DNA of 55,583 nucleotides from Melioribacteraceae bacterium (GTDB lineage: Bacteria; Bacteroidota; Ignavibacteria; Ignavibacteriales; Melioribacteraceae): contig BQMY01000123.1 of assembly GCA_022181065.1 (NCBI GenBank), positions 1 through 55,583 of the forward strand. Reading direction: 5' to 3'. Below are positions 31,990 through 55,289 of the stretch, one piece after another (position 1 is the stretch's first letter; every line of letters begins with the position of its first letter). The position numbers and the translations under genes were made by a program. The notes below the pieces were generated by a model, which searched no databases, was not told the origin of the DNA, and was given only the letters and a program-made list of their open reading frames with translations.

Positions 31990-32021
31990 TTATTTATAGT
32001 TAGTATCATATGATACTATTT
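31990..32021. repeat. 32-bp exact repeat straddling a stop codon, copy 2
   Basis: Identical to 15212-15243, including the 18-bp palindrome. Here the palindrome starts at the TAG stop of the GH81 gene. The two copies are 16.8 kb apart and in the same orientation relative to their genes. Confidence 0.85.
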
Positions 32022-35342: not shown

Positions 35343-35713
35343 TCTTTATTCCTTTTGATAAAAGTGGTTTGCCAAATTGTTTTTAGAGATGAATATAATT
35401 GCCGAGAAATGTTCGCTTATTGAGGAATACTGATTTAGAACGGGAGATAGTTATACCTCCTGAGCAATTAGAAAAGTACTGCAATAATGATACCAGGAAT
35501 TTGTTAAAGTCTTAATTATTCAATTCGGCGGTATTTAGCGGTAATTCTTAAATATCGTTAGCGGATTAATTATACATATTATAACTTACCGTTATTAAAT
35601 TGATAATAAATTCAATGTTATTCAGCGGCAGGAACTGCGATTTTATAAGAAATCAGGCTATTTAATTCTACCCGAATGACGTTTACAGCCCGGTTTTAAC
35701 GAAGTAAATGTTT

Positions 35714-40354: not shown

Positions 40355-40683
40355 CCTTACTCCAATATAAAAGTTGAAAACTAATCATCAGTAACATTCA
40401 GTAGTTTTAGAGGGATAAACTTACTACCGAAAACTTAAATGCAAACATTTTAAAGTCAAAATATAATTGTATCACAGTTAAATAACTAAAATCATTACAT
40501 CAGAATCCAGGTGATTGTTAAAAAACAATATATTAAGAAAAAAAATATTATCATAAAGGAACCTTGAAATCCATAAAATAATAATTAACCAAATATTTCT
40601 TCCAATTTTTCCAATTACTTTATTATTATTGCGTCTATATTATATATTTATCGTCAAAGATTTTAAAAATTGAGTTGATTATT

Positions 40684-42117: not shown

Positions 42118-42133
42118 GACCCCGATATTAAAG

Positions 42134-42158
42134 AAATCCCGTTAGCAGCGGGATTTTT
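42134..42158 (+). terminator. Intrinsic terminator of the ADP-dependent kinase gene
   Basis: An 8-bp stem, AAATCCCG (42134-42141) and CGGGATTT (42149-42156), with a 7-nt loop ends in a T run 17 bp after the stop. It separates this gene from the sensing locus that follows. Confidence 0.88.
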
Positions 42159-42303
42159 GTTTAATTTTTTTTCATTCGCCCCATTTTAAAGAGTAGTTGG
42201 CAGATTATGGAAATTAATTAAAGTTTGATTGATACTTGTTATTTATCGGGGGTATGATTTTTGTTTGTTTAAGATAAGTGTGTAAACAGAGTTCCCGGTA
42301 TGT

Positions 42304-43617
42304 ATGAAAAATAACAGATCTCTTCCCCAAAACATATCCTCCTATATCTTCGGAGCAACATTATTATCCCTTGCCGGATTAAGTCTGTTTTATCTAAATC
42401 CTTATGATTTTGGTTTAGGCGGGGTATCGGAACCTGAGAAAGTATATTTCGCGGATCATATATCCGAAGTCTATTTGGAGATAATCAATGAGTTCAATGA
42501 GATTCATGAAGGCGAAATTGAGGTAGTTCCGGTAGATCTTCCATTTGAAAAGTTCACAACTAATGAACGTAAAGAGATATTGTTCCGATTCCTGCGCGGT
42601 AATGATGTAATTGACATATTTGTCGTGGACCAGATCTGGATTCCGCGTTTCGCTAAATGGGGGGCTGACCTGAATGTTTACCTCCATGACTTTGTCCGTG
42701 ACAGCTTGATTACACAGTCCCAGCAAAGTGCTTATTACGGAGACAAACTTGTTTCCGTGCCTATACATCTGGATATGGGAGTAATGTTTTACAGAAAAGA
42801 TCTTTTACAGAAGCATTTTGATTTTGAAAGTATCGAAACTGATTTAAGTAATTCTATCAGTTATGAGAGATTGTTTGATATTGCGGAAAAACATGATGCA
42901 AATTTACCGAAATATGTGTTCCAGGCGGATAATTATGAAAGTCTGGTCTGCAATTTTGTTGAATTATGGGCTTCAGTAAATGCAAGAGAACTGACATCTT
43001 ATGAGGACATCGACTCAGTTTCCGCACTGAAAACACTTGATGCACTGGAGTTGCTTATTAAAAATTCAGGTGTGAAGAGAGCTACTCTCGCGCAATTAAA
43101 CGAAACTTCAAGTTTTTCCTATTTTCTCGAAAACCATGGACTTTTTCTCAGGGGATGGCCAAGTTCCATTATGGATATGAAATCATTAGGTTATAGTGAC
43201 AGTCTATTGAATAACATAGGTATAGCGGCTCTCCCGCACTTCATGGAAAAAAGTTTTATCATTGGCGGCTGGAACATGATGATATCCAATAATTCCACTA
43301 AAAAAGTTGAAGCGGCAAAGTTTATCAAGTTTTTGATGAGCCATGATAGTCAAAGAAAAATCTATAAAAGCAGGGGACATGTTTCTACTAACATAAACCT
43401 TTATAAAACTAGTGAGTTAGAAAAAGATGAGAATTTGAGGTTTTTTAGTAATATGCTGAATTATGGTGTTTACAGACCGGTTGATAAACAATATACCAGA
43501 CAGTCGGATATATTGTCATATTATCTAAATCAGTTTGTAAAAGGTGAATTAACTAAAAAGGAAACCATACATAAGATTATCACAGGTATGGAGCAGGAAG
43601 ATTTTATTCTAAGGTAG
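42304..43617 (+). CDS. Membrane-anchored extracellular solute-binding protein (family 1-like)
   Basis: A 437-aa protein with an N-terminal hydrophobic helix (about 12-32) and no lipobox, followed by a two-lobed sugar-binding-protein fold. Recognisable stretches are YLEIINEFNEIHEG, DIFVVDQIWIPRFAKWG, LVSVPIHLDMGVMFYRKDLL and IGGWNMMISNNSTKKVEAAKFIKFL, typical of ABC-type carbohydrate binding proteins. No permease or ATPase genes are nearby. Instead the gene is followed after 3 bp by a histidine kinase gene and then a response regulator gene, which argues for a sensory role: reporting an extracytoplasmic sugar to the kinase (inference). Confidence 0.85.
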   Translation: MKNNRSLPQNISSYIFGATLLSLAGLSLFYLNPYDFGLGGVSEPEKVYFADHISEVYLEIINEFNEIHEGEIEVVPVDLPFEKFTTNERKEILFRFLRGNDVIDIFVVDQIWIPRFAKWGADLNVYLHDFVRDSLITQSQQSAYYGDKLVSVPIHLDMGVMFYRKDLLQKHFDFESIETDLSNSISYERLFDIAEKHDANLPKYVFQADNYESLVCNFVELWASVNARELTSYEDIDSVSALKTLDALELLIKNSGVKRATLAQLNETSSFSYFLENHGLFLRGWPSSIMDMKSLGYSDSLLNNIGIAALPHFMEKSFIIGGWNMMISNNSTKKVEAAKFIKFLMSHDSQRKIYKSRGHVSTNINLYKTSELEKDENLRFFSNMLNYGVYRPVDKQYTRQSDILSYYLNQFVKGELTKKETIHKIITGMEQEDFILR

Positions 43618-43620
43618 TTT

Positions 43621-45096
43621 ATGAAAATAACCAGTTTAATATCTCGCGGTAAAATAGCAAATCTAAAATACAATCATCTGCTGATTTTATTTCTTGTTTT
43701 ATTTCTTTTTCAAATCGGTTTATCTTTCATTCACAAAGCGACTGTAAATGATTTTCTCGACGGCGCGAATAATTGGTACAAGAAAGATTCAGCCGAAAGA
43801 TTTGCCAACATTACAACCACCTCCCTTGAGTTATTGATTGAAACAAGCAGCAATCAGAAAATGGAGCTTGAGGGGAGTAAGGAAGAGATAATAAAATCTA
43901 TAAATATTATCCTCAGTTGGCAGAATCTTAAGAAACGAGTAAAAGATATTTCTCTTGTTTTTGAAGTCAATAATAATTTTTACGCTATTAGTGACGGTAT
44001 GAATTTGTATGAATTTATATTCGAATCCAGAAGGGATGATAAATTATTACTTCAGAATAGTGTTATCGCGGAAGTTGAAAATATAACCGAATACTACAAT
44101 GAAGTTAGTTTAACTGAAAAAATTATCACGGGCAATGATAAAGAGAAAAGAATTCACATTGCTGTGCCATTTTCTCCGCGGGGTGAACATGCCGGAATGG
44201 TATTTATCAATTATGAGCCTGATTTTTCGGAGATGACGCAAGAAATTATCGCCGGTTATGACAAATTGGGACTTATATATTCAACACTGATAATTTTCGG
44301 ATTGCTGATAATGTATTATATAAGCGCGTATATTCTGAAGGAGAGGGATTACGCGCACAAGCTATATCTTGAAGAACATGAACAAAGCCTAAAACACAAA
44401 ATTGATCTGGAAAATGAATCACGTTTTACAAAAAGGATTTACCATACTCACCATAAGGCTGAAAAAATTATGGGATTTATCAAAAATGATATCAGCAAAA
44501 TGACAGATAACCTGTTAAAATATAAACTATTGAAGTATTCAAACTTCATTTCAAGAGTTATTTATGATATGAAATGGTATGATCCGCCTGTCAATACGGT
44601 TCGTAATGTGATTTATAATACCAACATAAATGAAGTGATCAGATTTCTCACCGAACACGTTTTTAAACGAGTATCAGATAATGATGGAAGTGTGGAATTT
44701 AAGCTCTCACTCGATGAAAATTTGCCCACAGTAAATCTGAATGAGTTTGTAATATGGGAAATACTGGAACCGTTGATCCAGAATAGCATTGAACATTCAG
44801 GAGAAGATTATCTTACGGTAACAATTTCAACAGCGTATGATAGTGGACAAAATAGGGGGAAGATTATACTCGAAGATAACGGTGCAGGATTAAAGCCGGA
44901 GTTTTTATCGGAAGATGAATCGGGAATACAAAAAATATTCCTTGAAAATCTTACATCCGGCAGCTATGGAGGCAGACATAGAGGTTATGGTTGTTATATC
45001 GCTCATACTATGGCTACAAAACGTTGCGGGTGGTCGCTTAGAGGAGAAAACAGGGAAGTCGGCGGCAGCCGTTTTCTAATTGAACTAAAATATTAA
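43621..45096 (+). CDS. Membrane sensor histidine kinase
   Basis: A 491-aa kinase with a transmembrane helix (about 19-37), an extracytoplasmic sensor of about 180 aa, a second helix (about 220-242), then a cytoplasmic dimerisation region and HATPase_c domain. The N box is LEPLIQNSIEHS, G1 is EDNGAGL and G2 is GGRHRGYG. The phospho-acceptor region is not a standard HisKA box; the best candidates are the His residues in RIYHTHHKAEKIMGF (about 276-290). It sits 3 bp after the solute-binding protein gene and 9 bp before the regulator gene, so the three form one sensing unit. Confidence 0.88.
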   Translation: MKITSLISRGKIANLKYNHLLILFLVLFLFQIGLSFIHKATVNDFLDGANNWYKKDSAERFANITTTSLELLIETSSNQKMELEGSKEEIIKSINIILSWQNLKKRVKDISLVFEVNNNFYAISDGMNLYEFIFESRRDDKLLLQNSVIAEVENITEYYNEVSLTEKIITGNDKEKRIHIAVPFSPRGEHAGMVFINYEPDFSEMTQEIIAGYDKLGLIYSTLIIFGLLIMYYISAYILKERDYAHKLYLEEHEQSLKHKIDLENESRFTKRIYHTHHKAEKIMGFIKNDISKMTDNLLKYKLLKYSNFISRVIYDMKWYDPPVNTVRNVIYNTNINEVIRFLTEHVFKRVSDNDGSVEFKLSLDENLPTVNLNEFVIWEILEPLIQNSIEHSGEDYLTVTISTAYDSGQNRGKIILEDNGAGLKPEFLSEDESGIQKIFLENLTSGSYGGRHRGYGCYIAHTMATKRCGWSLRGENREVGGSRFLIELKY

Positions 45097-45105
45097 GCGG
45101 GAATT

Positions 45106-46560
45106 ATGTTTACAGACAATATTATCAATATACTACTTATTGAAGATGAAGAATATGATGTTCAGCGAGTTAAAAATACCTTGCAGCTGTTTGAGCAGAA
45201 TATCAGGATCAAAGCGGTTGTTTCCTCAGGTATAAAGGCAATAAATCTTCTTGAGGCGAATGCCGAGGATTACGATGTGGTTATCATGGATTACCAGATC
45301 TCCGGCGGTTTGATGGGGGAGAAGCTTATAAGAAAGATTAAAACGATAGACCCCTTGTTACAGGTAATTGTAATTACAAAAATGACGATCAACATCAATG
45401 ACCTGAATTTTGCCAACGAACTTATTCAGGCCGGGGCGTTTTGGTTTTGCACAAAATATCCGGGTGATGTTGATTACATTTATCAACCAACAGATTTTAG
45501 CCTGAGCATATTTAACGCCAAGCGTAAAAGAGAGCTTGAGTTTGCTCAAAGAAGTTCCGATATGAAACTTTCCAGGAATATTCGGGAGATTTTGAGTTCC
45601 AAAAAAATTATCGGCAGTTCACAACCAGTGCAGCAGCTTCATAACAGAATAGATAAATGCGCCGCGACAACCGCTTCAGTGATGATAACCGGTCCTTCCG
45701 GTTCGGGAAAAGAATTGGTCGCCGCAAACATCCATTATCGAAGTGAAAGGAAATATGAAAATTTTGTTGCCGTTAACTGCGGTTCAATTCCCACCGAATT
45801 AATTGAAAGTGAACTTTTCGGATATACCAAGGGCGCTTTCACAGGAGCCGATAAAAACAAAGAAGGTTTGTTCGAATACGCAAATAAGGGAACATTATTT
45901 CTTGACGAAGTAGCCGAATTGCCGCATAATGTACAGGTCAAATTGTTAAGAGTTCTGCAGGAAGGAGAACTTGAGAAAATCGGGTCAACCGAACGTAAAA
46001 AGGTTGATGTGAGAATTATCTCAGCCACAAATAAAGATCTGAAGCAGGAAGTAGTGGAAAGACGATTCAGGGAAGACCTTTTTTACAGATTGAATGTAAT
46101 CCCTATTCGTGTTCCATCTTTGGCTGAGAGAGCAGACGATATCACGCTGCTATTCAGGCATTTTCTCGGTGAATTTTCTCAACAGCTGAATATACCATTT
46201 CCCGAAATCCGGGATGACGCTCTCGAAATTTTGCGAAATTATGAGTATCCCGGTAATATCAGGGAATTGAAAAACATTACACAGCGCATTTTATTCGATT
46301 CTGAAGGAATTATAACGCCAAATATTGTTCGTAATTCTGTTGAAGGCGCACCAATTATGTTTGAATCGAGCTCCGGGGAATTTAATCAGATTCTTGAGAC
46401 GGAGGAAATCCTGCCTTTCAGTGACGCTAAAAAAATACTTCACAAAAAGTACCTCACATATGTGCGCGAAAACTCAAATTCTGACGCGCATGCAGCCGAG
46501 CAGCTTGGGATGGCGCCATCCAATTTTCATAGAATTTGCAAGGAGCATGGTCTGAAATAG
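45106..46560 (+). CDS. Sigma54-dependent response regulator (NtrC family)
   Basis: A 484-aa enhancer-binding protein. The receiver domain (1-125) has the acidic pocket IEDEE and phospho-acceptor Asp62 in VVIMDY. The AAA+ sigma54-activation domain (about 168-400) has Walker A GPSGSGKE (196-203), the sigma54-contacting GAFTGA loop (243-248), Walker B LFLDE (264-268), and an arginine-finger region RRFREDLFYRLNVI. A Fis-type helix-turn-helix ends the protein (HAAEQLGMAPSNFHRICKEHG). It should be phosphorylated by the adjacent kinase and act from upstream sites. The first candidate site begins at the base after its stop codon. Confidence 0.95.
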   Translation: MFTDNIINILLIEDEEYDVQRVKNTLQLFEQNIRIKAVVSSGIKAINLLEANAEDYDVVIMDYQISGGLMGEKLIRKIKTIDPLLQVIVITKMTININDLNFANELIQAGAFWFCTKYPGDVDYIYQPTDFSLSIFNAKRKRELEFAQRSSDMKLSRNIREILSSKKIIGSSQPVQQLHNRIDKCAATTASVMITGPSGSGKELVAANIHYRSERKYENFVAVNCGSIPTELIESELFGYTKGAFTGADKNKEGLFEYANKGTLFLDEVAELPHNVQVKLLRVLQEGELEKIGSTERKKVDVRIISATNKDLKQEVVERRFREDLFYRLNVIPIRVPSLAERADDITLLFRHFLGEFSQQLNIPFPEIRDDALEILRNYEYPGNIRELKNITQRILFDSEGIITPNIVRNSVEGAPIMFESSSGEFNQILETEEILPFSDAKKILHKKYLTYVRENSNSDAHAAEQLGMAPSNFHRICKEHGLK

Positions 46561-46599
46561 TTATCAAAAATGATAAGTTTGTCTTATCAATTCCGCAAC
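46561..46599 (+). promoter_or_regulatory. Putative enhancer sites of the sigma54 regulator, first array
   Basis: A perfect site TTATCA-AAAA-TGATAA (46561-46576) is followed 23 bp later by a half site, TTATCA-ATTC (46584-46593). The same motif and the same 23-bp step recur at 49732. The array lies about 105-140 bp upstream of the membrane protein gene. Confidence 0.6.
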
Positions 46600-46659
46600 A
46601 TAATACATAATTTTTACTGATTACAAGCTGTGAATCAAAAAAAGCTGATTTTCTTATGA

Positions 46660-46676
46660 TGGCATAAAAAGTGACT
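46660..46676 (+). promoter_or_regulatory. Candidate sigma54-type promoter (weak)
   Basis: TGGCATAAAAAGTGACT keeps the -24 TGGCA and the 10-bp spacing from GG to the -12 element, but has GA rather than the conserved GC at -12. It lies between the enhancer-like array and the membrane protein gene. The match is partial and depends on context. Confidence 0.3.
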
Positions 46677-46702
46677 CTCTCATAAAAAAAATAGAGAGTT
46701 AA

Positions 46703-47680
46703 TTGGTTTTACAAAGTAAAATATTAGTTGCGGCAGAAAAAATTAAATATCTCTGGATTCCGGTTTTTTACTTCTATATTGCTGATGCGGTGCCGCTATT
46801 TGAACTTGTTATTTTTATCTTCATTTTTTCCATTTCATTGATAAATCAAAGAAAATCAGGGACTAAAAATGAGAAATCGATTATCAAGCCAATATTCCTG
46901 CTAATGATCGAATTGCTTCTTATGAGCAGAGTTTTTCATTTAATCTTAACTGCAAACTCGGGATCGCAAGGTGAGGTGATTTTTGTTTTATCTCTCGTTC
47001 TTCTGTTTTTTACTTCCGTAAGAATTAAATCGAACCTTTTATACAAATGGTATCTTGTATCGATAATAATTATAGTTATAACAACGCTACTAATTTTTAG
47101 CGGCGTATCGGTTACAAAGTACGCAGTTACTACTGATTTGACATTATTATTGCCATTAATTGCTACTATTTTTCTGTTACTGCTCAGACCGGGCAGTAAT
47201 AATCAACCCGGGGTTTTATTAATCAAAACAGTTGGGGGAATTATCAATTCCGCGCTTGCTATTTTTGTTTTTACGCAGTTAGATATTGAATTTATTACTT
47301 TTAAATGGTCAGGCGGAGAAAATTCAACTATTTACTTATTGTCAACATTAGCGGGCTGTATAGCGCTATTTTTTATTTCCTTGAATGAACTGATAACCAG
47401 GGAAATAATACCCGAAACCAAACGAATCCTTGCTCCATTTCTTGAAGGTGGTTCAAACAATAAAATTCAGCTTACCGAGCGTCTTACGCTTCTTGCGGTA
47501 TTAATATTCATTCTTGTGTTTGGCTCAATAAATATGGAGCAACTAGGAGTGAGAATTGATACAATACTGATTTTCTACGTTGTTCTTTTATTCATTAACA
47601 GATATAGTTGTCTAATAAGAAATATTAGTCTTCGCACAGATCAGGAAGTTACCAGGTCTGTAGAAGCCAAAAAGCATTAA
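46703..47680 (+). CDS. Polytopic membrane protein of unknown function
   Basis: A 325-aa protein with about ten hydrophobic helices (centred near 25, 40, 70, 98, 123, 151, 182, 219, 270 and 296), short loops and a charged C-terminus. I do not recognise a transporter or enzyme family, and there are no conserved charged residues inside helices typical of sugar permeases. It starts with TTG, preceded by an AGAGAG stretch. It is the first gene after the enhancer-like array and is followed 31 bp later by the GH66 gene, so it is probably cotranscribed with it. A role in sensing, uptake or envelope assembly of the glucan system is possible but unproven. Confidence 0.75.
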   Translation: MVLQSKILVAAEKIKYLWIPVFYFYIADAVPLFELVIFIFIFSISLINQRKSGTKNEKSIIKPIFLLMIELLLMSRVFHLILTANSGSQGEVIFVLSLVLLFFTSVRIKSNLLYKWYLVSIIIIVITTLLIFSGVSVTKYAVTTDLTLLLPLIATIFLLLLRPGSNNQPGVLLIKTVGGIINSALAIFVFTQLDIEFITFKWSGGENSTIYLLSTLAGCIALFFISLNELITREIIPETKRILAPFLEGGSNNKIQLTERLTLLAVLIFILVFGSINMEQLGVRIDTILIFYVVLLFINRYSCLIRNISLRTDQEVTRSVEAKKH

Positions 47681-47711
47681 ATGTTTAATTAAATAATTTT
47701 CAGAGATCATA

Positions 47712-49730
47712 ATGAAATTTTCCAAACTTTTATTCTTTTATGTGATTATTCAACTTTTCTCATCATTTTACGCGCAGAACATTGAGTCGATTATAACTGA
47801 TAAAGCCAGGTATATCCCCGGTGATACAGTATTTTTTCAACTCGATTTCGACCAAAATATCAATTCTGGTGTTTTGCATGTGCGATATTTTCATCTCGGT
47901 ACTGTAATTGATGAAGTAGAAATTGAAGTAATCGACAATCAGTTGTTAAATTGGGAATATATTCCCGTCGAGGATGACTTCAAAGGCTATCTCGCCGAGG
48001 TGAAATTTTTTGTTGATGGTCATCTTCTGGATCGCGATAACATCGCGTTTGATGTTTCTTCCGAATGGACAAAGTTTCCGCGTTACGGCTTTTTAAGTGA
48101 TTATACAATTTTGAATTCGGGTTTGCGTGACGATGTTTTATCCAATCTTAACAGACACCATATTAATGGATTACAGTATTATGACTGGCAGAACAAACAT
48201 CATATTCCTCTCGATGGTACTCCGCAGTCACCCGCTTATTCCTGGAAAAATATTTTTAACAGAACGGTCTATTACTGGACAGTAAGATATTATATCGAGG
48301 AAGCAAATACCTATAATATAAAATCGATGAACTACAATTTATTGTACGGCGCATACTCGGATGCTTCCGATGATGGAGTGAGTGACGAATGGCGAATATT
48401 TGAGGATAATCAGCACCTTACTCCAAAATTTCATGACCTGCCGGATTCCTGGGAGAGTGATATCTATCTTATTAATCCATTTAATCAGGACTGGAAAAAT
48501 TACTTGTTTGACAAAGAAAAGGACGCCTTTGAAGCACTTCCTTTTGATGGATGGCACATAGATCAGCTTGGAAATCAGGGAACAGTTTACGATTATTTTG
48601 GTAATTCGCTTAATTTGAAGAATTCTTATACACCATTTATTTCAGAGGCAAAAGATTTTCTGGACAAAAAAATGGTCATGAATGCAGTGGGGCAATATGG
48701 ACAAGCAGAGATTTCACAGGCTCCGGTAGAATTTTTATATACCGAGCATTGGGATGATGACAGTTACAGCGATATCGCAGATATTATCAAAACAAACAGT
48801 TCTTACTCACAGAATAGCTTAAATACAGTTCTCGCGGCTTATATGAATTATGATTTCGGGCAGTCAACCGGATATTTCAATACGCCGGGAATTTTATATA
48901 CTGATGCTGTTATATTTTCGGAAGGCGGCGCACACCTTGAACTTGGCGAGCATATGCTTCATAACGAGTTTTTCCCCGCTAACAACTTACAGATGAGTGA
49001 AGAACTAACCGCAAGTCTGGTTGACTATTACGATTTCCTCACAGCATACCAGAATATTCTCAGGGACAGCGTATCAAACGGTTTCCTGACACTTACTAGT
49101 GATATATCTTTATCAAATTTTGTAAAGACAGGCTCTGTCTGGAAAAGAGTTAAAACAAAAGATGAGATGGATATCATTCATCTGATAAATTTTATAGGAG
49201 CAACACATACACGCTGGAAGGATAAAAACGCAAATCAGACTGCCCCAATCATTCAGAAAGACTTTGAATTTAATATTCATAGTTCTAAAAGTATCGGCAG
49301 GATTTGGATGGCATCACCCGATACAATCAGCGGTTCACCGGTCTCACTGCCATTTACTGAAAGTTCGGGAGTTTACACGATATCAGTCCCGTATCTTGAA
49401 TATTGGACAATGATAGTTGTTGAATATGGTGATCAGGTTGGTGTTGAAAAAAATAATGGTAAACCCGATAAGTTTACGTTGGGCCAAAATTTTCCTAATC
49501 CGTTTAATCCGAATACAACAGTAGAGTTTACGATCAGCGAACCGGGAACAGTTAAATTCGGTGTGATTGATATTCTGGGGCAGGAGATTTTGACGATGAA
49601 TACTCATTATAATTTTGCCGGTAACTATCATATAAATATCAGCGCGAAAAATCTTTCATCGGGGGTATACTGGTACTATATGCGGCAGAATGAGAATGTA
49701 GAAGTTAGGAAGATGATGGTTTTAAAGTGA
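47712..49730 (+). CDS. GH66 dextranase/cycloisomaltooligosaccharide glucanotransferase-like enzyme with T9SS sorting domain
   Basis: A 672-aa exported enzyme. A signal peptide (1-21) and an N-terminal beta domain (about 22-115) are followed by a GH66 barrel. The barrel has PRYGFLSDY (123), LNRHHINGLQYYDWQNKHH (146), MNYNLLYGAY (206), FDGWHIDQLG (278-287, nucleophile candidate Asp284), FLYTEHWD (acid/base candidate Glu345), and the block TDAVIFSEGGAHLELGEHML (397-416). A T9SS sorting domain follows from about 593. GH66 enzymes cleave or cyclise alpha-1,6-glucan; dextranase is more likely than the cyclising activity because I see no inserted CBM35. Catalytic residues are assigned by family pattern. 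Confidence 0.93.
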   Translation: MKFSKLLFFYVIIQLFSSFYAQNIESIITDKARYIPGDTVFFQLDFDQNINSGVLHVRYFHLGTVIDEVEIEVIDNQLLNWEYIPVEDDFKGYLAEVKFFVDGHLLDRDNIAFDVSSEWTKFPRYGFLSDYTILNSGLRDDVLSNLNRHHINGLQYYDWQNKHHIPLDGTPQSPAYSWKNIFNRTVYYWTVRYYIEEANTYNIKSMNYNLLYGAYSDASDDGVSDEWRIFEDNQHLTPKFHDLPDSWESDIYLINPFNQDWKNYLFDKEKDAFEALPFDGWHIDQLGNQGTVYDYFGNSLNLKNSYTPFISEAKDFLDKKMVMNAVGQYGQAEISQAPVEFLYTEHWDDDSYSDIADIIKTNSSYSQNSLNTVLAAYMNYDFGQSTGYFNTPGILYTDAVIFSEGGAHLELGEHMLHNEFFPANNLQMSEELTASLVDYYDFLTAYQNILRDSVSNGFLTLTSDISLSNFVKTGSVWKRVKTKDEMDIIHLINFIGATHTRWKDKNANQTAPIIQKDFEFNIHSSKSIGRIWMASPDTISGSPVSLPFTESSGVYTISVPYLEYWTMIVVEYGDQVGVEKNNGKPDKFTLGQNFPNPFNPNTTVEFTISEPGTVKFGVIDILGQEILTMNTHYNFAGNYHINISAKNLSSGVYWYYMRQNENVEVRKMMVLK

Positions 49731-49731
49731 C

Positions 49732-49804
49732 TTATCAAAAAAGATAAGATTTTATTATCGGAATTGATAAAACAATTCTTTTTAATACATATCAATCCCG
49801 ATAA
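49732..49804 (+). promoter_or_regulatory. Putative enhancer sites of the sigma54 regulator, second array (three copies)
   Basis: Three sites of 16 bp: TTATCA-AAAA-AGATAA (49732-49747), TTATCG-GAAT-TGATAA (49755-49770) and ATATCA-ATCC-CGATAA (49789-49804). Start-to-start distances are 23 and 34 bp, which keeps them on nearly one face of the helix. The array begins 2 bp after the GH66 stop and ends 56 bp before the next gene. Confidence 0.65.
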
Positions 49805-49810
49805 TCCTAT

Positions 49811-49827
49811 TTGGAACGGAATATGAA
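49811..49827 (+). promoter_or_regulatory. Candidate sigma54-type promoter (weak)
   Basis: TTGGAACGGAATATGAA has GG, 10 bp, then GA, the same partial pattern as at 46660. It lies immediately downstream of the enhancer-like array and about 33 bp before the ATG. The -12 element is GA rather than GC, so support is weak. Confidence 0.3.
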
Positions 49828-49860
49828 TAATTATAATAAACCAAATTTAATGGAGCAAAA

Positions 49861-51321
49861 ATGAGAATCAAGTTTGTACTATTATTACTTTTCGTTACAG
49901 GTGCGATGTTCTCTCAGCCCGTATCTGTGACTTTTCAGGTTGACATGTCGGTGCAGGTGGGATATGGTCTTTTCGATACCGCGAATGACATTGTTTACTT
50001 GCGTGGAGAATTTAACGACTGGGATTTAAATTATCCGATGACAGATGATGATGTTGACACGATCTACACTTTTACCATCGAAGGTTTGATGCCGGCGGAT
50101 ACATTCAACTATAAATACTACCGCTCAAATGGCGAAACATGGGAAGATGATCCGGAGCGTGTTCTTATTGTACCAGATCAGGATGATACTCTGGAAGTAG
50201 CCTTTTTTAACCGTCAGGATGGCAGCACTGTTTCAGGTGATGTTCTCGTGGCGTTTAATGTGAACATGGAATTTGAAAAAATCGCCGGAAGATTTGAGCC
50301 GGGAAATGATACCGTTTGGGTAAGAGGCGCGTTTAACGGCTGGGCAGGAACCAATCCTATGACACAATCAGTTACTGATCCCAATATTTATGAAGGACAG
50401 GCTGATCTGTTCCTCTTTGAAGGAGATACAATTCACTACAAGTTCGCGTATGGAACTTCCAATGATATTACCTGGGAAAATGACTTTACACAAAATACCG
50501 GTGGACACAGACTAATAGGGATAACAGCTGATGTAATCAATGATGGATTTATACTCGACGAGGGAACATTCAATGAAATTTCTCTTGATGATGTTACCAA
50601 CTATGAGTCTTCAGTGGTATTTTCGGTTGATATGAACAACGCGGTTGATCTTAATGGAAACCCGTTTACGGCTATTGAGAATGTATTCGTCTGTGGCGGT
50701 ACTTTTCCGCTTGGCTGGGGATGGGATCAAAATCAATATGATAATGCCACCTTTATGAATGATAATGGTGAAGAGGGTGATACAACACCGGGTGATGGAA
50801 TTTGGGCAGTAAGAGTATTTTTCCCCCAATACACTCCGTTGCTTGTTCAGTACAAATATGGAGCAAACTGGGGATTGAGCAGTAATAACGGCACTAATGA
50901 CAATGAAAACCCGTCAGGTGAAGATCACTGGATAGAACTTCTTCCGGTTATGGTTAGTGCCCGGGTTGAAAACGTTTTTGGTGAAGCTACCACTTCAGAT
51001 AATCCTCATATTTTACTTGATGTTGTAACTGATCTTGAAGAAGTAAATACTGGTGTAACAGGATTTGCTTTAAAACAGAATTATCCTAATCCTTTCAATC
51101 CTTCTACTACGATCAATTTTGCGATTCAGGAGACCGGATTTGTTACATTGAAAGTATATGACATTCTTGGAAATGAAATTACCACGCTCGTCTCTGAGCA
51201 TCTAAATTCGGGTGAATATAAAGTTGGATTCGACGGTTCTTCTCTCTCTTCGGGAATCTATTTTTACGAGTTACGTACGAAAGAAAATATCGCGACAAAC
51301 AAAATGATTTTAATAAAATAA
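49861..51321 (+). CDS. Secreted multi-module glycan-binding-like protein with T9SS sorting domain
   Basis: A 486-aa exported protein. The signal peptide (1-19) is followed by three related early-set beta-sandwich modules at about 20-125, 128-240 and 250-385. Each starts with a pattern such as VTFQVDMSV...VYLRGEFNDW, VAFNVNME...VWVRGAFNGW or VVFSVDMN...VFVCGGTF. This pattern resembles CBM20/CBM48-type starch-binding modules (G-x-F-N-x-W). A T9SS sorting domain follows from about 398 (NYPNPFNPSTTINFA). A surface alpha-glucan-binding role is inferred from module type and the adjacent GH66. The gene is directly behind the three-site array and is probably the first of its own transcript. GGAG lies 5 nt before the ATG. 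Confidence 0.82.
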   Translation: MRIKFVLLLLFVTGAMFSQPVSVTFQVDMSVQVGYGLFDTANDIVYLRGEFNDWDLNYPMTDDDVDTIYTFTIEGLMPADTFNYKYYRSNGETWEDDPERVLIVPDQDDTLEVAFFNRQDGSTVSGDVLVAFNVNMEFEKIAGRFEPGNDTVWVRGAFNGWAGTNPMTQSVTDPNIYEGQADLFLFEGDTIHYKFAYGTSNDITWENDFTQNTGGHRLIGITADVINDGFILDEGTFNEISLDDVTNYESSVVFSVDMNNAVDLNGNPFTAIENVFVCGGTFPLGWGWDQNQYDNATFMNDNGEEGDTTPGDGIWAVRVFFPQYTPLLVQYKYGANWGLSSNNGTNDNENPSGEDHWIELLPVMVSARVENVFGEATTSDNPHILLDVVTDLEEVNTGVTGFALKQNYPNPFNPSTTINFAIQETGFVTLKVYDILGNEITTLVSEHLNSGEYKVGFDGSSLSSGIYFYELRTKENIATNKMILIK

Positions 51322-51328
51322 AACTGAG

Positions 51329-51352
51329 GGGGATAATTTTTATCCCCTTTTT
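51329..51352 (+). terminator. Intrinsic terminator between the binding protein and glycosidase genes
   Basis: A perfect 8-bp stem, GGGGATAA (51329-51336) and TTATCCCC (51340-51347), with a 3-nt loop runs into five T. It lies 8 bp after the stop, so it can lower or block readthrough into the glycosidase gene. Confidence 0.85.
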
Positions 51353-51364
51353 AATTTGAAGACT

Positions 51365-53992
51365 ATGAAAATATACTTGTTTATTATAACTTTTATTTCC
51401 TCGCAGTTTTTTGCTCAATCGGCTATATATGAGAATAACTCTTATTCCCTTTTTCATGACAGGGTTGTCGAGGGTGAGAAAGAAGCTGTGGTTATTTCAC
51501 CCCGTGAAATTACAACCAACTATGTGGGCGCGCTTGCTGATGGTTTTGACAGACTCGTAAAATTCAAGTTTGCGCTAAATGGCGCCGATAATGAACGTCC
51601 GTCCGGGATGGATCATGAAGTTTATCTTAATCCGAAAGATGGATATTTTGAAACTCCGCTGTTTATTTTCGGGCAGCCGGATCCTGTGGGCTCAGGGCTA
51701 CCGCAGGGAAAAGAACATAGTATCAGACCGGATCAAAAGTTTAACGTAAAGTTTCGTGTTGATATGCGAAATGTATTAAGAGAGTTTGAGGAAAAAGGAT
51801 ATTATACTCTTTATAATGGTGAAAAATTAAATAAAAGTGAGTTTAAAGGTGTTTTTTTAGCAGGTAGTACAACACCATTAATCTGGGATTTTGATCAGCT
51901 GCCAAAAATGAAAAATCTTGAACTTTCAGATGCTGATGGTGACGGTATATTTGAGGTAACTCTCGACTTTGTACCAACATCATACAGGAGTGTGAAAGGG
52001 GAAATTGGGGTATGGAAACTCAAAAAAGATGTTAGTCAGTTTCCACAGCTGAAATCGACAGTTCCTATAGTTGAAGCAATGTACAACCTGTCACTTGAAG
52101 AGTTGCTTGAAAATGTTCGTCCTGATGGTGCTTTCATGGCGGGCGCAAAATGGAATGGCGTATGGACAAGGGATATCAGTTATTCAATAGTGTTAAGTCT
52201 TGCGTCAATAATGCCGGACGCTTCTAAAGTAAGCTTGATGGCAAAAGTAAAAGATGGAATGATAATTCAGGATACAGGGACGGGAGGTTCTTATCCGGTA
52301 TCATCTGACAGGATGACATGGGCACTTGCTGCATGGGAAATATATAAGTCCACCGGCGATTTGAATTGGTTGCAGACTATTTATCCTGTAATTAAAAAAT
52401 CGGTTGATCAAGATCTGCAAACATTATACAATGAAGATGTATCCCTTGCTTCCGGTGAATCATCATTCCTTGATTGGCGGGAACAATCTTATCCCGAATG
52501 GATGGATCCCAAAGATATTTATATTTCGAAAAACCTCGGTACAAATATAGTACACTTCGCGACTCTGGATATCCTCGCCAATATTGAAGAAATATTCGGA
52601 TATGATTCAGAAAAATATCAATCTCTATCCGACAAATTAAGGGAAGAGATAAATAGACAATTGTGGGTAGAAGAGAAAGGGTATTACGGTCAATATTTAT
52701 ACGGAAGAAACTATTTGAGCCTTTCTCCCAAAAGTGAAACTCTTGGCGAAGCCCTGTCAATATTATACGAGGTCGCTGATCAGGAACGTGCTGAAAGAAT
52801 AGTTAAAAATACCCCGGTAACTGAATATGGTTCGCCTTGCTTTTATCCTCAAATACCGGGAATTCCACCATATCATAATAATGGTATTTGGCCATTTGTG
52901 CAGGCGTATCACACCTGGGCAGCTGCTAAAGTTAAAAACGAAGCTTCAGTGGTTCATGGCTTTGCTTCCATATACAGACCCGCGATGCTATACCTGACGA
53001 ATAAGGAAAACTTTGTCGCGGAATCAGGAGATTTTAATGGTACGCAGATCAATTCAAACAGACAGTTATGGAGTGTAGCCGGGAATATCGCTTTGGTGCA
53101 TCGTGTTTTATTCGGAATGGAGGCAACAGCTGATGGTATAACGTTAGACCCATTTATTCCGGAGGCTATTGGGGGAGAGTACAGCCTGACAAATTATCGT
53201 TATCACAAAGCGATTCTTAATATTAAAATCACCGGATTTGGTACTTCACCCGAATCAGTGTTGATCAATAATGTTAAACACGAAAATGTAATCATTCCCA
53301 ACGAGGCTGAAGGTGTTTATGATATCGTCATAAATATGAATGGTTCGAATGGAGCAGACGAATACAATTTGGTAGAAAATCGATTTTCTCCCGAAACTCC
53401 TGATGTTAATTTTAGTGGAAGTTTAGTGACATGGTCTAAAGTACCGTCGGCAAAAAAATACAAGGTCTATATAAATGGTGAGTTTAAGGAGAGTATTTCA
53501 ACGAACGAATTTAATTACGAAAAAGATACCTCCCTTAAAACATTTCAGGTTAAGGCAGTTGACCAATATGGGTTTGAATCATTCTTATCAGAACCAATTC
53601 ATTTAATTGAAGAAACGAAGGTTCAAATTGTAGATACAGATAATACCAAAATCTCTCCGAATAAAAATACAAAATTGGAGTTTAACTTTGATATTGATGA
53701 AGCAGGTACATACGCAATTGACTTTTATTACGGAAATGGCACCGGTCCGATCAACACCGATAATAATTGCGCTATCCGAACTGTAATGTTGAACGGACAA
53801 TCAAAAACGCTCATCTTACCACAGAGAGGTACAGGTGACTGGAAAGACCGAGGTTATTCGAATCCTCTTCACTTCTCACTGAAAGCAGGTGAACAAAACT
53901 TGTTGATAGAATATTCGGATATAAATATAAATATGGATGGAGAAATTAACGAAGCTGTAATAGAACATTTCAGAATCATGAAATTAGATTAA
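51365..53992 (+). CDS. Exported (alpha/alpha)6-barrel glycosidase, probable alpha-glucosidase type
   Basis: An 875-aa protein. A signal peptide (about 1-17, ending FFAQS) and an N-terminal beta domain (about 20-215, with a VFLAGSTTPLIWDFDQL segment like a starch-binding module) are followed by a six-hairpin (alpha/alpha)6 region of about 225-615. This carries AKWNGVWTRDISYSIVLSLA, GGSYPVSSDRMTWALAAWE, FLDWREQSYPEWMD and HNNGIWPFVQAYHTWAA, a pattern seen in amylo-alpha-1,6-glucosidase- and trehalase-like clans. A Fn3-like stretch (about 670-745) and a final CBM6-like sandwich follow. The exact GH family is uncertain. There is no T9SS sorting domain, unlike its neighbours, so it is probably periplasmic and processes oligosaccharides released outside (inference). 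I start at ATG 51365, not TTG 51356. Confidence 0.82.
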   Translation: MKIYLFIITFISSQFFAQSAIYENNSYSLFHDRVVEGEKEAVVISPREITTNYVGALADGFDRLVKFKFALNGADNERPSGMDHEVYLNPKDGYFETPLFIFGQPDPVGSGLPQGKEHSIRPDQKFNVKFRVDMRNVLREFEEKGYYTLYNGEKLNKSEFKGVFLAGSTTPLIWDFDQLPKMKNLELSDADGDGIFEVTLDFVPTSYRSVKGEIGVWKLKKDVSQFPQLKSTVPIVEAMYNLSLEELLENVRPDGAFMAGAKWNGVWTRDISYSIVLSLASIMPDASKVSLMAKVKDGMIIQDTGTGGSYPVSSDRMTWALAAWEIYKSTGDLNWLQTIYPVIKKSVDQDLQTLYNEDVSLASGESSFLDWREQSYPEWMDPKDIYISKNLGTNIVHFATLDILANIEEIFGYDSEKYQSLSDKLREEINRQLWVEEKGYYGQYLYGRNYLSLSPKSETLGEALSILYEVADQERAERIVKNTPVTEYGSPCFYPQIPGIPPYHNNGIWPFVQAYHTWAAAKVKNEASVVHGFASIYRPAMLYLTNKENFVAESGDFNGTQINSNRQLWSVAGNIALVHRVLFGMEATADGITLDPFIPEAIGGEYSLTNYRYHKAILNIKITGFGTSPESVLINNVKHENVIIPNEAEGVYDIVINMNGSNGADEYNLVENRFSPETPDVNFSGSLVTWSKVPSAKKYKVYINGEFKESISTNEFNYEKDTSLKTFQVKAVDQYGFESFLSEPIHLIEETKVQIVDTDNTKISPNKNTKLEFNFDIDEAGTYAIDFYYGNGTGPINTDNNCAIRTVMLNGQSKTLILPQRGTGDWKDRGYSNPLHFSLKAGEQNLLIEYSDININMDGEINEAVIEHFRIMKLD

Positions 53993-54014
53993 CTATATCA
54001 CTTTTGGAGGAAAC

Positions 54015-55289
54015 ATGAAGAAAATATATTTACTTGTTATATGGGTCGGTTTAACGATTACATCTTTAGCCCAGGTAGATTTGTATGTAAGGGGTGATTT
54101 TAACAGCTGGGGAACAGATGGTGGTGGTCCCTTGGTTGATGACGGCACAAACGGTGACGCCGTAGCTAATGACAGCATTTTTACATATACGGTTACTATG
54201 GGCACTACCGGCAGATACGAATGGAAAATCGCAAGTGAGGACTGGAGCCAGATATTCCCCTGGGCAGGGGGTGATGATAATGCGTGGTTGATAACTACCG
54301 AGGATAATCAGGATGTAATATTCACAATTGACAAGAATGTTTATAATGATGGTTTTGAACCCGGGTTTAATGTCGTAAACGCAAATGATCAATTACCCAC
54401 ACCGACAAGTGATATAGTCGCGGCAGGTGATTTCCAGGGATGGAATAACGCAGGTGGTACAGTTTTATATGATGACGGTACAAATGGTGACTGGGTTGCT
54501 GGTGATGGTATCTATACTTACTATTATATCGAGGCAAACGCCGGAACATACAGTTGGAAACCGGTCATGAGCGGCACCTGGGATACATGGGTCTCAGCAG
54601 GGAGAACTGTTTCATCTACCAACTTGCAATATATTACTGAATCGGCTGATGAAGAAGTATTCTTCTATCTTGATATAAATACAGGTCGAGTTGCAACTGC
54701 GGTGGGTGCGCCATTGCCTGTTGAACTTGTTTCATTCAGTGCTTCAGTGCAGAAGAATGAGATAGTTCTATTGTGGGAAACCGCATCTGAATTGAACAAC
54801 ATGGGTTTCGAAATTGAAAGAAAAGTTGATGGCTCTGACAAATGGGTTAAGATTGGTTTTATTGAAGGAAGAGGAACTACAACAAACACTTCAAAGTACT
54901 CGTTTACAGATAATCCTGAAGTGAGCAATACTTACTTTTATCGACTAAAACAGATGGATAATGATGGTTCTTTCGAATACTCCGGCTATGTGGGAATTGA
55001 ATTTACTAAACCACTTGAATTTGAGTTGGGTCAAAACTATCCGAATCCTTTTAACCCTTCGACTACAATCAGTTTTTCTGTACCTGAACAATCAAAAGTT
55101 ACATTGAATGTTTATGATATTACTGGTGGACTAGTTGAACAGGTTTTAGATGAAAACTATGAAGCGGGTTATTACGAAGTAAATTTCAACGCGAACAATA
55201 TTCCATCAGGAACTTATTTTTACACGATTTCCGCCTCAGGAATTGAAAATTTCTGGCAAAAAACCGGTAAAATGCTCCTCTTGAAGTAA
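54015..55289 (+). CDS. Secreted tandem-module glycan-binding-like protein with T9SS sorting domain
   Basis: A 424-aa exported protein. The signal peptide (1-19, ending TSLAQ) is followed by two related modules at about 20-115 and 128-230, each with a G-D-F-x-x-W motif (VRGDFNSWGTDGG and AAGDFQGWNNAGG) and a DDGTNGD-VA(N/G)D stretch of the kind found in pullulanase-associated or CBM-like domains. A fibronectin-III-like domain (about 238-335, LPVELVSFSASV start) and a T9SS sorting domain from about 340 follow. GGAGG lies 5 nt before the ATG. It follows the glycosidase gene by 22 bp, so the two are likely cotranscribed. A surface alpha-glucan-binding role is inferred from context. Confidence 0.82.
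   Translation: MKKIYLLVIWVGLTITSLAQVDLYVRGDFNSWGTDGGGPLVDDGTNGDAVANDSIFTYTVTMGTTGRYEWKIASEDWSQIFPWAGGDDNAWLITTEDNQDVIFTIDKNVYNDGFEPGFNVVNANDQLPTPTSDIVAAGDFQGWNNAGGTVLYDDGTNGDWVAGDGIYTYYYIEANAGTYSWKPVMSGTWDTWVSAGRTVSSTNLQYITESADEEVFFYLDINTGRVATAVGAPLPVELVSFSASVQKNEIVLLWETASELNNMGFEIERKVDGSDKWVKIGFIEGRGTTTNTSKYSFTDNPEVSNTYFYRLKQMDNDGSFEYSGYVGIEFTKPLEFELGQNYPNPFNPSTTISFSVPEQSKVTLNVYDITGGLVEQVLDENYEAGYYEVNFNANNIPSGTYFYTISASGIENFWQKTGKMLLLK

Follow-up and report, generated by a model that had tools for sequence, protein, structure and literature searches.

Sigma54-controlled sugar operons are known from Firmicutes, e.g., LevR with the levanase operon; activators of the LevR type are one-component proteins under PTS control. 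In Bacteroides, polysaccharide loci are known to be run by SusR-like and HTCS regulators; "glucosidase and dextranase" are named in a passage on a SusR-type regulon, and the main text of the same source makes no mention of sigma54, RpoN or NtrC (PMC3878776). CuaDSR of Ruminiclostridium cellulolyticum is a three-component system for the control of sugar uptake, with XylFII-LytS mentioned alongside (PMC10384115). A comparative sigma54 survey defines the sigma54 promoter and proposes cell-exterior control, while its main text does not mention Bacteroid, Chlorobi, dextran, levanase or hydrolase (PMC3162934). As for dextran use in Bacteroidota, the text on a branched-dextran system uses the term GH66 on ten occasions and "dextran utilization locus" on three (PMC10316084).

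Here, we analyzed a stretch of 55,583 bp from a Melioribacteraceae genome (the window), in which tandem palindromes follow the gene of an NtrC-type regulator and, again, a dextranase gene. These arrays are very probably upstream activating sequences of the 45106 regulator, within a three-component glycan switch (binding protein, kinase, activator) that depends on sigma54 and drives hydrolases and transporters. The genes concerned are:

42304–43617 (+), sugar-binding protein (SBP_bac_1, Pfam E 5e-14) with a hydrophobic N-terminal segment 11–29 by hydropathy
43621–45096 (+), sensor histidine kinase (HATPase_c, E 1.8e-9) with hydrophobic segments 12–30 and 216–234 by hydropathy
45106–46560 (+), NtrC-type response regulator with a receiver, an AAA+ sigma54-interaction domain and a short C-terminal HTH-like segment
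46703–47680 (+), membrane protein with about nine hydrophobic segments, unmatched in Pfam, whose gene would open the controlled unit
47712–49730 (+), GH66 endo-dextranase with a T9SS C-terminal tail (Glyco_hydro_66, E 3e-174; Por_Secre_tail)
49861–51321 (+), secreted CBM20/AMPK1_CBM-like starch/glucan-binding protein with a T9SS tail (Pfam)
51356–53992 (+), six-hairpin glycosidase (Bac_rhamnosid6H/GDE_C-like, Pfam)
54015–55289 (+), T9SS protein with a choice-of-anchor X match and a pullulanase-X25 match below cut-off

By sequence, the closest solved structures of the 42304 protein are trehalose/maltose-binding proteins (1eu8, E 8e-31), and we propose that it acts as a periplasmic glycan sensor. 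The kinase would carry an extracytoplasmic domain between its two hydrophobic segments; its HTHHK region is nearly invariant in an alignment of 27 sequences, and the cytoplasmic part of its model matches histidine kinase structures. The gene preceding the first array encodes an NtrC-type regulator, just as the original prediction had it, with matches to Response_reg (E 5e-11) and Sigma54_activat (E 8e-71) and a GAFTGA loop at residue 243. It shares 53–61% identity with 21 relatives, and D57 and D62 of the receiver, the candidate phosphoacceptors, are invariant in 22 sequences. No Pfam HTH_8 match was obtained for the regulator at E 1; its C-terminus is spanned by the NorR model alignment, and the C-terminal segment is conserved in relatives.

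The GH66 domain is full length (profile 1–546 of 546, 581 bits), and the protein scores 626 bits against the EndoDexBT3087 model, which is under the model cut-off of 730. The 51356 product matches six-hairpin/GDE glycosidase models and neither GH31 nor GH13; Bac_rhamnosid6H-matching proteins lie beside GH66 also in two other genomes, G257 (L292) and G019 (L298). None of the nine window proteins scanned (40675–55289) matched susC or susD. The linkage of GH66 with the kinase recurs, as 9 of 18 GH66 genes are positioned 2.6–16 kb downstream of a homologous kinase on the same strand, and in three of the 18 GH66 genomes (G078, G085, G191) the kinase matches are weak only. None of the 17 GH66 genes of relatives has a site of this type in the examined stretch around the gene. 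The sites of the window and the promoter-like elements behind them are:

46561–46576 (unstranded), operator 1a, TTATCAAAAATGATAA, no mismatch to TTATCA-N4-TGATAA
46584–46599 (unstranded), operator 1b, TTATCAATTCCGCAAC, a half site with four mismatches, 23 bp from 1a
46659–46676 (+), predicted -24/-12 element, ATGGCATAAAAAGTGACT, GG at 46661, 61 bp after operator 1b, 12.7 bits
49732–49747 (unstranded), operator 2a, TTATCAAAAAAGATAA, one mismatch
49755–49770 (unstranded), operator 2b, TTATCGGAATTGATAA, one mismatch, 23 bp from 2a
49789–49804 (unstranded), operator 2c, ATATCAATCCCGATAA, two mismatches, 34 bp from 2b
49811–49828 (+), weak -24/-12 candidate, TTGGAACGGAATATGAAT, GG at 49813, 8.7 bits

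All five sites had been claimed, and they are present at 46561, 46584 (half), 49732, 49755 and 49789; the claimed first step of 23 bp is exact in both arrays, the last step of the second being 34 bp. Operator 2c could also pair with 2b in a hairpin. The observation that arrays begin at stop codons holds in the window, where array 1 directly follows 46560 and array 2 starts 1 bp after the GH66 stop at 49730, but not as a general rule, since in relatives the offset after the regulator stop ranges from 0 to 221 bp. The best single site was matched in 0 of 2000 dinucleotide shuffles of the array 1 gap and in 13 of 2000 of the array 2 gap, and the best pair at 21–24 bp was equaled in 0 of 2000 in each gap. 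With ORFs taken from 120 aa upward, the window has 19 gaps of 60 bp or longer; a pair with up to four mismatches occurs in the two array gaps only, the next best gap having seven. The perfect TTATCA-N4-TGATAA site is found at three places in the 4.9-Mb genome, one of them (C99:24794) intragenic, and a copy with one mismatch at 44477 lies inside the kinase gene. Equal frequency of the sites elsewhere, named beforehand as a point against the proposal, is not what is seen: the tandem N3/N4 pattern gives ten matches in the own genome (some being the same place read on both strands) vs. one in the reversed control, and six of the ten fall at two such regulator loci. Across the 18 Sigma54_activat loci of this genome (3.1–3.5 kb each), perfect sites occur at the window's locus and at that of a paralogue, C99, only. 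A TTATC half site after the palindrome, comparable to operator 1b, is seen also in L104, L108, L112 and L180.

In Ignavibacteria and neighboring phyla, we found 122 distinct kinase-NtrC regulator pairs, 120 of which have an adjacent sugar-binding protein homolog. An operator family, TTATYA-N3/4-TRATAA, intergenic and usually tandem at about 22 bp, is present in the locus of 76 of 116 regulators; for the other 40, the locus sequence examined holds no perfect site in an intergenic array, and one 11-member regulator clade has no site with up to one mismatch in the 300 bp after any regulator. Perfect operators within 250 bp after the regulator stop were detected in 33 of 74 loci vs. 0.16 expected from shuffles. 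In the 1.76 Mb of triad loci, perfect N3 sites number 187 (reversed control, 8) and tandem N3 pairs with up to two mismatches in all number 106 (reversed control, none), with centre spacings peaking at 22 bp (55), 23 bp (22) and 21 bp (14). Related sites recur in homologous loci, and the anticipated co-occurrence with the regulator system was likewise observed: 36 of the 82 kinase-bearing genomes carry perfect tandem N3 arrays, as opposed to 0 of the 212 that lack the kinase (Fisher p 1e-23, which overstates independence because the genomes share ancestry). Within the window's order, the corresponding values are 33 of 40 and 0 of 19. The own-genome match in this N3 count is that of the C99 paralogue, the N4 arrays of the window lying outside the pattern. 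In relatives, it is common for a second array to lie a short way ahead of a gene. Among 63 genes behind sites (62 first genes behind post-regulator sites of relatives and the window's GH66, second in its unit), Pfam assigned T9SS tails (32), SSF symporters (19), GH2 (16) and GH5 (12).

Each array had also been said to be followed by a poor GG-N10-GA element. Both elements are present (46661, 49813), each being the top match of its gap with a matrix, TGGYAYNATTNTTGH, from whose training the window was left out, the remaining scored regions being the training set; the first scores 12.7 bits and the second 8.7 bits. The predicted starts are at about 46686 and 49838. The 49813 candidate is the best match in its region, at an atypical distance of 42 bp from 2b and 8 bp from 2c; matrix matches are mostly located 60–76 bp downstream of arrays. 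At 10 bits or more, 88 of 121 array regions have a match vs. 3 on the opposite strand and 2 when reversed, and opposite-strand controls reach at least 8 bits in 8 of 121 and at least 9 bits in 5 of 121. A promoter lies downstream of 50 of 55 post-regulator arrays and antisense in 1 of 55, placing the dyad sites on the correct side, and 33 of 38 arrays of the "other" class have one downstream.

In 98 aligned family promoters, GG at -24 is kept in 96–98% and G at -12 in 99%, with a spacing of 10 nt, whereas about 72% lack the C that classical sigma54 promoters have at -12 (A.34, C.28, T.36). Both window elements have A in its place; we therefore call these elements sigma54-type and not classical matches. 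The GTG-type -12 of the first element is shared with four of the seven clade mates examined (L057, L060, L075, L095) and absent from L055 and L111, no element being found in L058. In L057, a pair of N4 sites with a 23-bp step (the first with one mismatch) is followed 59 bp further on by ATGGCATAAATTGTGTAA. Genome-wide, summed over 36 genomes, TGGCAYR-N4-TTGCW gives 62 matches vs. 36 in the control and the TTGWW form 194 vs. 188; thus, the canonical TTGC is the enriched form. The combined site and promoter pattern was found 31 times, spread over 16 of the 38 family genomes, vs. 7 times in the control. The own genome encodes one RpoN (Sigma54_DBD, E 3e-59), with the ARRTVAKYRE box present.

The 16-bp N4 form of the window is a minority variant of a 15-bp N3 family. 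Over the triad loci as a whole, N4 sites show no enrichment (15 vs. 11 in the control; tandem N4 pairs 2 vs. 4), and the argument for the window's form is therefore one of position and clade. The window's regulator groups with those of L055 and L057 (support 98); N4 sites accompany all three (that of L055 with one mismatch), and spacer length tracks the regulator tree (8 N4 rows, 3 changes vs. 7.8 when shuffled, 0 of 500). Within the own genome, the intergenic sites of the dextran locus are 16 bp long and those of the C99 paralogue 15 bp, the only perfect N4 copy of the C99 locus being intragenic. The regulators of L055 and L057 also share genomes with N3 loci (L070; L114 and L131, respectively). 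Candidate distant sites before GH81 and GH3 genes are of the 15-bp type, the former with these features:

35592–35606 (-), N3-type operator, TTATCAATTTAATAA, upstream of the GH81-CBM6-T9SS gene 32016–35342 (-)
35479–35496 (-), -24/-12 element of the GH81 gene, CTGGTATCATTATTGCAG, 16.7 bits, 97 bp after the N3 operator

We propose that the 35592 operator is a target of the C99 paralogue rather than of the window's regulator. Our search of the own genome for distant targets of the latter gave none that convinced, the one N4-type candidate (on C83) preceding genes that look non-sugar by eye; its regulon therefore looks local. Only tentatively can the picture be widened to a lineage-wide sigma54 glycan control, in which paralogues of the same cell are separated by one bp of operator spacing and promoters mostly lack the -12 C (TTG followed by A, T or C).

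It seems improbable that some other DNA-binding protein, e.g., a repressor or a global sugar regulator that by coincidence governs these glycan loci too, uses the palindromes as its operators, with the NtrC regulator acting elsewhere. Such a reading could draw on the regulator's HTH being missed by HTH_8, on the 40 regulators whose examined locus lacks a perfect-site intergenic array, and on binding to the palindromes being predicted from sequence; yet all 36 genomes with tandem N3 arrays have the kinase, spacer length follows the regulator tree, and the usual 60–76 bp to a -24/-12-like element fit a sigma54 enhancer and not an overlapping repressor. More remote still is the idea of RNA hairpins or terminators ending the regulator and dextranase genes. 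It would explain why the sites start 0–1 bp past stop codons and why 49755 and 49789 pair as a hairpin (-19.5 kcal/mol and z -3.4 for a 91-nt fold). Pairing of this kind is, however, an expected by-product of any two palindromic sites. Folding of the first array is weak (-6.1 kcal/mol, z -2.0), the stop codon distance varies in relatives, sense-strand promoters stand behind nearly all post-regulator arrays, and a terminator scan, which covers loops of 3–8 and not the 20-nt loop of the second hairpin, calls none at either array. Chance in AT-rich intergenic DNA is next to negligible: the bare pattern at three mismatches is indeed not rare (110 in the window vs. 69 expected), but shuffles, reversed controls and recurrence in relatives contradict it.

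Possible, although we doubt it, is that enhancer function is confined to the first array (46561/46584 with 46661), 49732–49789 being a decayed or structural copy and the genes from 49861 onward co-transcribed with GH66. The second promoter scores at a level reached by some opposite-strand controls, its distances to 49755 and 49789 are unusual, and the gap holds the strong hairpin; against this, the tandem sites are exactly 23 bp apart with two mismatches in all (0 of 2000 shuffles), second arrays are common in relatives, and most of the "other" arrays have a promoter downstream. The second array is the weaker claim, and its geometry and promoter are weak.

In the preferred reading, that of a sigma54-dependent switch, the membrane-anchored 42304 protein would present a glucan oligosaccharide, presumably derived from dextran, to the 43621 kinase, through which it would signal by contacting the sensor domain on ligand binding, by analogy with CuaDSR. 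The kinase would phosphorylate the 45106 regulator, whose activated oligomer would bind the tandem palindromes, its GAFTGA loop remodeling sigma54-RNA polymerase at the -24/-12 promoter that sigma54 is expected to read about 61 bp downstream. Transcription from about 46686 would yield the membrane protein and the secreted dextranase; with less certainty, a start at about 49838 would serve the genes of the surface glucan-binding protein and the glycosidase. The regulon originally predicted (sugar-binding protein, kinase, sigma54 regulator, dextranase, surface proteins) gains support from the recurrence, the co-occurrence, the promoter matrix and the GH66 linkage. We found no printed description of this switch and its sites recurring before sugar-use clusters of related bacteria. 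It points to a control logic across Ignavibacteria and neighbors that differs from the SusR-like and hybrid two-component systems of Bacteroides, namely a sigma54-type two-component switch that senses through a binding protein and whose operator code is readable. It also proposes a function for dozens of uncharacterized NtrC regulators and would let glycan regulons be predicted straight from DNA in largely uncultured lineages, while the paralogue series is natural material on how operator spacing separates enhancer-binding proteins.

Like LevR and the levanase operon, the locus would combine sigma54-dependent activation with glycan hydrolase and sugar uptake genes, but through a two-component NtrC-type regulator with an adjacent binding-protein gene. 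It shares dextran utilization in Bacteroidota with the branched-dextran system, from which, compared by title and abstract, it differs in that none of the nine scanned proteins matches SusD (PMC10316084). The -11/-12 promoter variants of the sigma54 survey concern species with several RpoN copies, whereas one was found here (PMC3162934). As in SusR/HTCS systems, local glycan sensing would turn on a linked polysaccharide-utilization locus; in HTCS, however, a single hybrid protein carries AraC domains and the motifs are direct repeats (PMC3878776), and the present locus, with its NtrC-type regulator and no susC/susD match in the nine scanned proteins, stands apart from SusR/HTCS-controlled PULs. 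With CuaDSR and XylFII-LytS it shares a dedicated sugar-binding protein gene beside a sensor kinase and response regulator in the control of sugar uptake, yet CuaR is a YesN/AraC regulator (PMC10384115), whereas here a sigma54-type activator is joined to tandem palindromes about 60 bp upstream of a -24/-12 element, before secreted T9SS hydrolases and SSF symporters.

The dextran locus lies on the forward strand of the window, which is contig C123 of a 4.9-Mb genome. It joins a sensory triad to surface carbohydrate-processing genes and carries two arrays of the palindrome TTATCA-N4-TGATAA:

42304 (+), sugar-binding protein gene
43621 (+), histidine kinase gene
45106 (+), NtrC-type response regulator gene
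next (+), membrane protein gene, followed by the GH66 dextranase gene with a T9SS tail
thereafter (+), genes for a CBM20-like T9SS protein, a six-hairpin glycosidase and a further T9SS protein
46561 and half site 46584, first array; GG of its proposed -24/-12 element at 46661
49732, 49755 and 49789, second array; GG of its proposed -24/-12 element at 49813

The repeat sites of the original prediction were borne out in position and exceed chance. The structure predicted for the kinase displays nothing beyond an ordinary histidine-kinase core, and the HTH of the regulator is not recognized by Pfam. Directly upstream of the triad lies an ADP-dependent phosphofructokinase/glucokinase-type gene (40675-42117), the product of which scores below the NCBIfam cut-off of each of the three named equivalogs.

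Among the 294 genomes of the class, 137 contain a match to the kinase, and in 82 the match is strong (E 8.4e-76 or lower, judged by hand from the match list). A scan of named genomes gave 228 relatives, 80 of which were retained, including records of Ignavibacteria, Melioribacter, Stygiobacter electus, Calditrichota, KSB1, Kryptoniota and Neomarinimicrobiota. The pooled fetched loci held 162 kinase ORFs; removal of 4 without an adjacent regulator and of 36 duplicates left 122 distinct kinase-regulator pairs, a set that still includes near-identical pairs of sister species (e.g., loci L084 and L091). A binding protein adjoins 120 of these pairs.

We found that the palindrome recurs with the triad. 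Perfect TTATYA-N3/4-TRATAA sites follow the regulator stop codon in 33 of 74 loci, vs. 0.16 predicted by shuffles, and sites with at most one mismatch in 43, vs. 4.9 predicted (the 74 being those with at least 250 bp past the stop, out of 80 kinase-regulator loci at that stage). Across 1.76 Mb of loci, perfect sites numbered 187 for N3, 15 for N4, 5 for N2 and 4 for N5, vs. 8, 11, 1 and 7, respectively, in reversed controls. Tandem pairs numbered 106 for N3 (control 0) and 2 for N4 (control 4). Of the two N4 pairs, one is the window's second array and the other belongs to locus L057. The N3 excess in both counts indicates that the 15-bp form is the family operator and the 16-bp form of the window a variant. 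Clusters with a perfect site number 139, and 123 of them fall between genes: 55 follow the regulator, 30 precede the binding protein gene and 38 lie elsewhere. The region upstream of the binding protein gene, initially chosen as a control, proved to contain real arrays, with a perfect site in 19 of 73 loci. Among the 30 arrays located there, the promoter points toward the gene on the other side in 16 cases and toward the binding protein in 6; thus, autoregulation is no general feature.

A tree of 116 regulators places the window's in a single clade with those of L055 and L057 (SH-aLRT 98), and all three have N4 sites. The eight N4 regulators require 3 changes on the tree vs. 7.8 in shuffles, and none of 500 shuffles was as low. 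Comparison of recognition helices gave no clean rule separating N3 from N4. For 40 of the 116 regulators, some of them with short flanks, no perfect-site intergenic array was present in the DNA examined. In one clade of 11 regulators (L097, L105, L110, L114, L115, L120, L121, L124, L127, L133, and L213) the TTATYA site is absent from the 300 bp after every member, and this clade may use a different operator.

Most of the arrays are accompanied by a directional promoter element. GG-N8-TTG occurs within 200 bp after 66 of the 123 intergenic arrays, vs. 13 for the opposite strand and 15 for reversed sequence. A promoter matrix refined on 121 array regions, with the window held out, has the consensus TGGYAYNATTNTTGH and reaches at least 10 bits in 88 of the 121 regions vs. 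3 and 2 in the controls, a gap that stems partly from training on the same regions; its GG lies mostly 60–64 or 69–76 bp past the array. The GG-N10-GA elements originally proposed proved to be the best matches of this matrix in the window, at 46661 (12.7 bits) and 49813 (8.7 bits). The former is located 61 bp past the half site, the commonest distance class of the family, and its GTG-type -12 is shared by four of the seven clade mates examined:

L057, ATGGCATAAATTGTGTAA
L060, ATGGCACTATTTGTGAAA
L075, GTGGCACTATTTGTGACA
L095, ATGGCATCATTTGTGGAA

The -12 of L055 and L111 differs from this type, and in L058, whose next gene begins further away, the 300 bp searched scored poorly and gave no promoter. 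The 49813 element is unusually spaced, 42 bp from 49755 and 8 bp from 49789, and we assign it to the second array less firmly. The -12 C is missing; it is mostly absent from array-linked promoters, in contrast to canonical TTGC sigma54 promoters, which are enriched genome-wide over the reversed control in 36 genomes, while TTG[A/T] is not.

At the genome level, 36 of the 294 genomes carry perfect tandem N3 arrays, and among the rows listed the control matched nowhere. A strong kinase is present in all 36; another 46 have such a kinase and no perfect tandem, and the remaining 212 have neither. The genomes under comparison are of common ancestry. The window's N4 arrays fall outside this pattern, and their genome scored via C99, the contig with a paralogous triad. 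Across the 38 genomes of the family, a combined site-plus-promoter pattern was matched 31 times, in 16 of them, vs. 7 times in the reversed control. Within the genome itself, perfect sites occur only at the window's and the C99 regulators among 18 Sigma54_activat loci (3.1–3.5 kb each), and a looser tandem pattern matches at the window, the C99 locus and three other contigs. Several candidates were not counted as targets. Two came from the tandem search: C5:10855/10867 lies inside an ORF and its promoter is not convincing; C74:209071 has no convincing promoter, and its next ORF is sensor-like by eye. At C83:15926-16004 (locus L226), an N4-type palindrome with a 10.1-bit promoter element 50 bp further on overlaps an ORF end and precedes genes that by eye resemble acyl-CoA/acetate metabolism and not sugar use. 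A whole-genome N4 scan with two mismatches (1105 vs. 511 in the control per strand) is dominated by AT-rich background and uninformative alone.

The paralogous locus and the distant features proposed to belong to it are organized as follows:

C99, in order: second binding protein, kinase and regulator genes, N3 sites, GH5-CBM6-T9SS gene, array with TTGGCATCAAAAATGCAT, SSF symporter gene, TonB receptor gene
window 35592-35606 (-), N3 operator
window 35479-35496 (-), 16.7-bit -24/-12 element
window 32016-35342 (-), GH81-CBM6-T9SS gene, beta-1,3-glucanase-like, downstream of both
L256 (on contig C93) 4302-6869, GH3 gene preceded by an N3 operator and a 13.3-bit promoter

The window's GH81 gene is a likely target of the C99 regulator. 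Intergenic sites with at most one mismatch are all N3 at the C99 locus and all N4 at the dextran locus, a correlation in few genomes on which the paralogues might be kept separate by operator spacing; a perfect N4 match at C99:24794 lies inside the GH5 gene and was discarded as coding. The GH3 gene is broken into two ORFs (313 and 529 aa). Adjoining the GH81 gene, an arylsulfotransferase-like protein with CBM4_9 and a T9SS tail is encoded at 29631-31916 (-).

Target genes were surveyed with Pfam in a set of 63 (the window's GH66 and, from relatives, the 62 genes that come first after a post-regulator site), which revealed 32 T9SS tails, 19 SSF symporters, 16 GH2, 12 GH5 and 4 TonB plugs. Arrays at other places in the loci are followed by 30 distinct genes, and 26 of these are SSF symporters. 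At a threshold of E 0.001, GH66 itself matched 36 of the 294 genomes, and the match was strong in 18 (E below 1e-170). Nine of the 18 strong genes, including the window's, lie 2.6–16 kb downstream of a strong kinase on the same strand (G000, the window's genome, G019, G057, G118, G124, G134, G254, G257, and G286). Of the other nine genomes, G078, G085 and G191 have weak kinase matches only, and the remaining six GH66 contigs are 7–27 kb long. Eight of the nine kinase-linked loci bear a post-regulator array, three N3 and five N4 (one mismatch in L104). The ninth, G019, possesses GH66 and the triad and has after its regulator no site within one mismatch, only the two-mismatch ATATCAATCTGATAT. 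Of 17 GH66 genes in relatives, none has a qualifying site within its own stretch of DNA examined. In G019 (locus L298), which was read throughout, the GH66 gene comes sixth among the ORFs past the regulator and may share one operon with them.

Given the genes, operators, spacing, promoter class, co-occurrence and linkage observed here, we infer a system in which a ligand would be sensed through the binding protein, phosphate would pass from kinase to regulator, and the regulator would bind the palindromes at promoters dependent on sigma54. In the open-access literature we found no prior description of such sigma54/NtrC polysaccharide control in Ignavibacteria or Melioribacter, an absence that is no proof, and such a regulator is not evident in the matching passages of the Melioribacter roseus genome paper. 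By sequence, the solved structures closest to the window's binding protein are trehalose/maltose binders by name, a kinship that proves no ligand and with which an alpha-glucan would fit.
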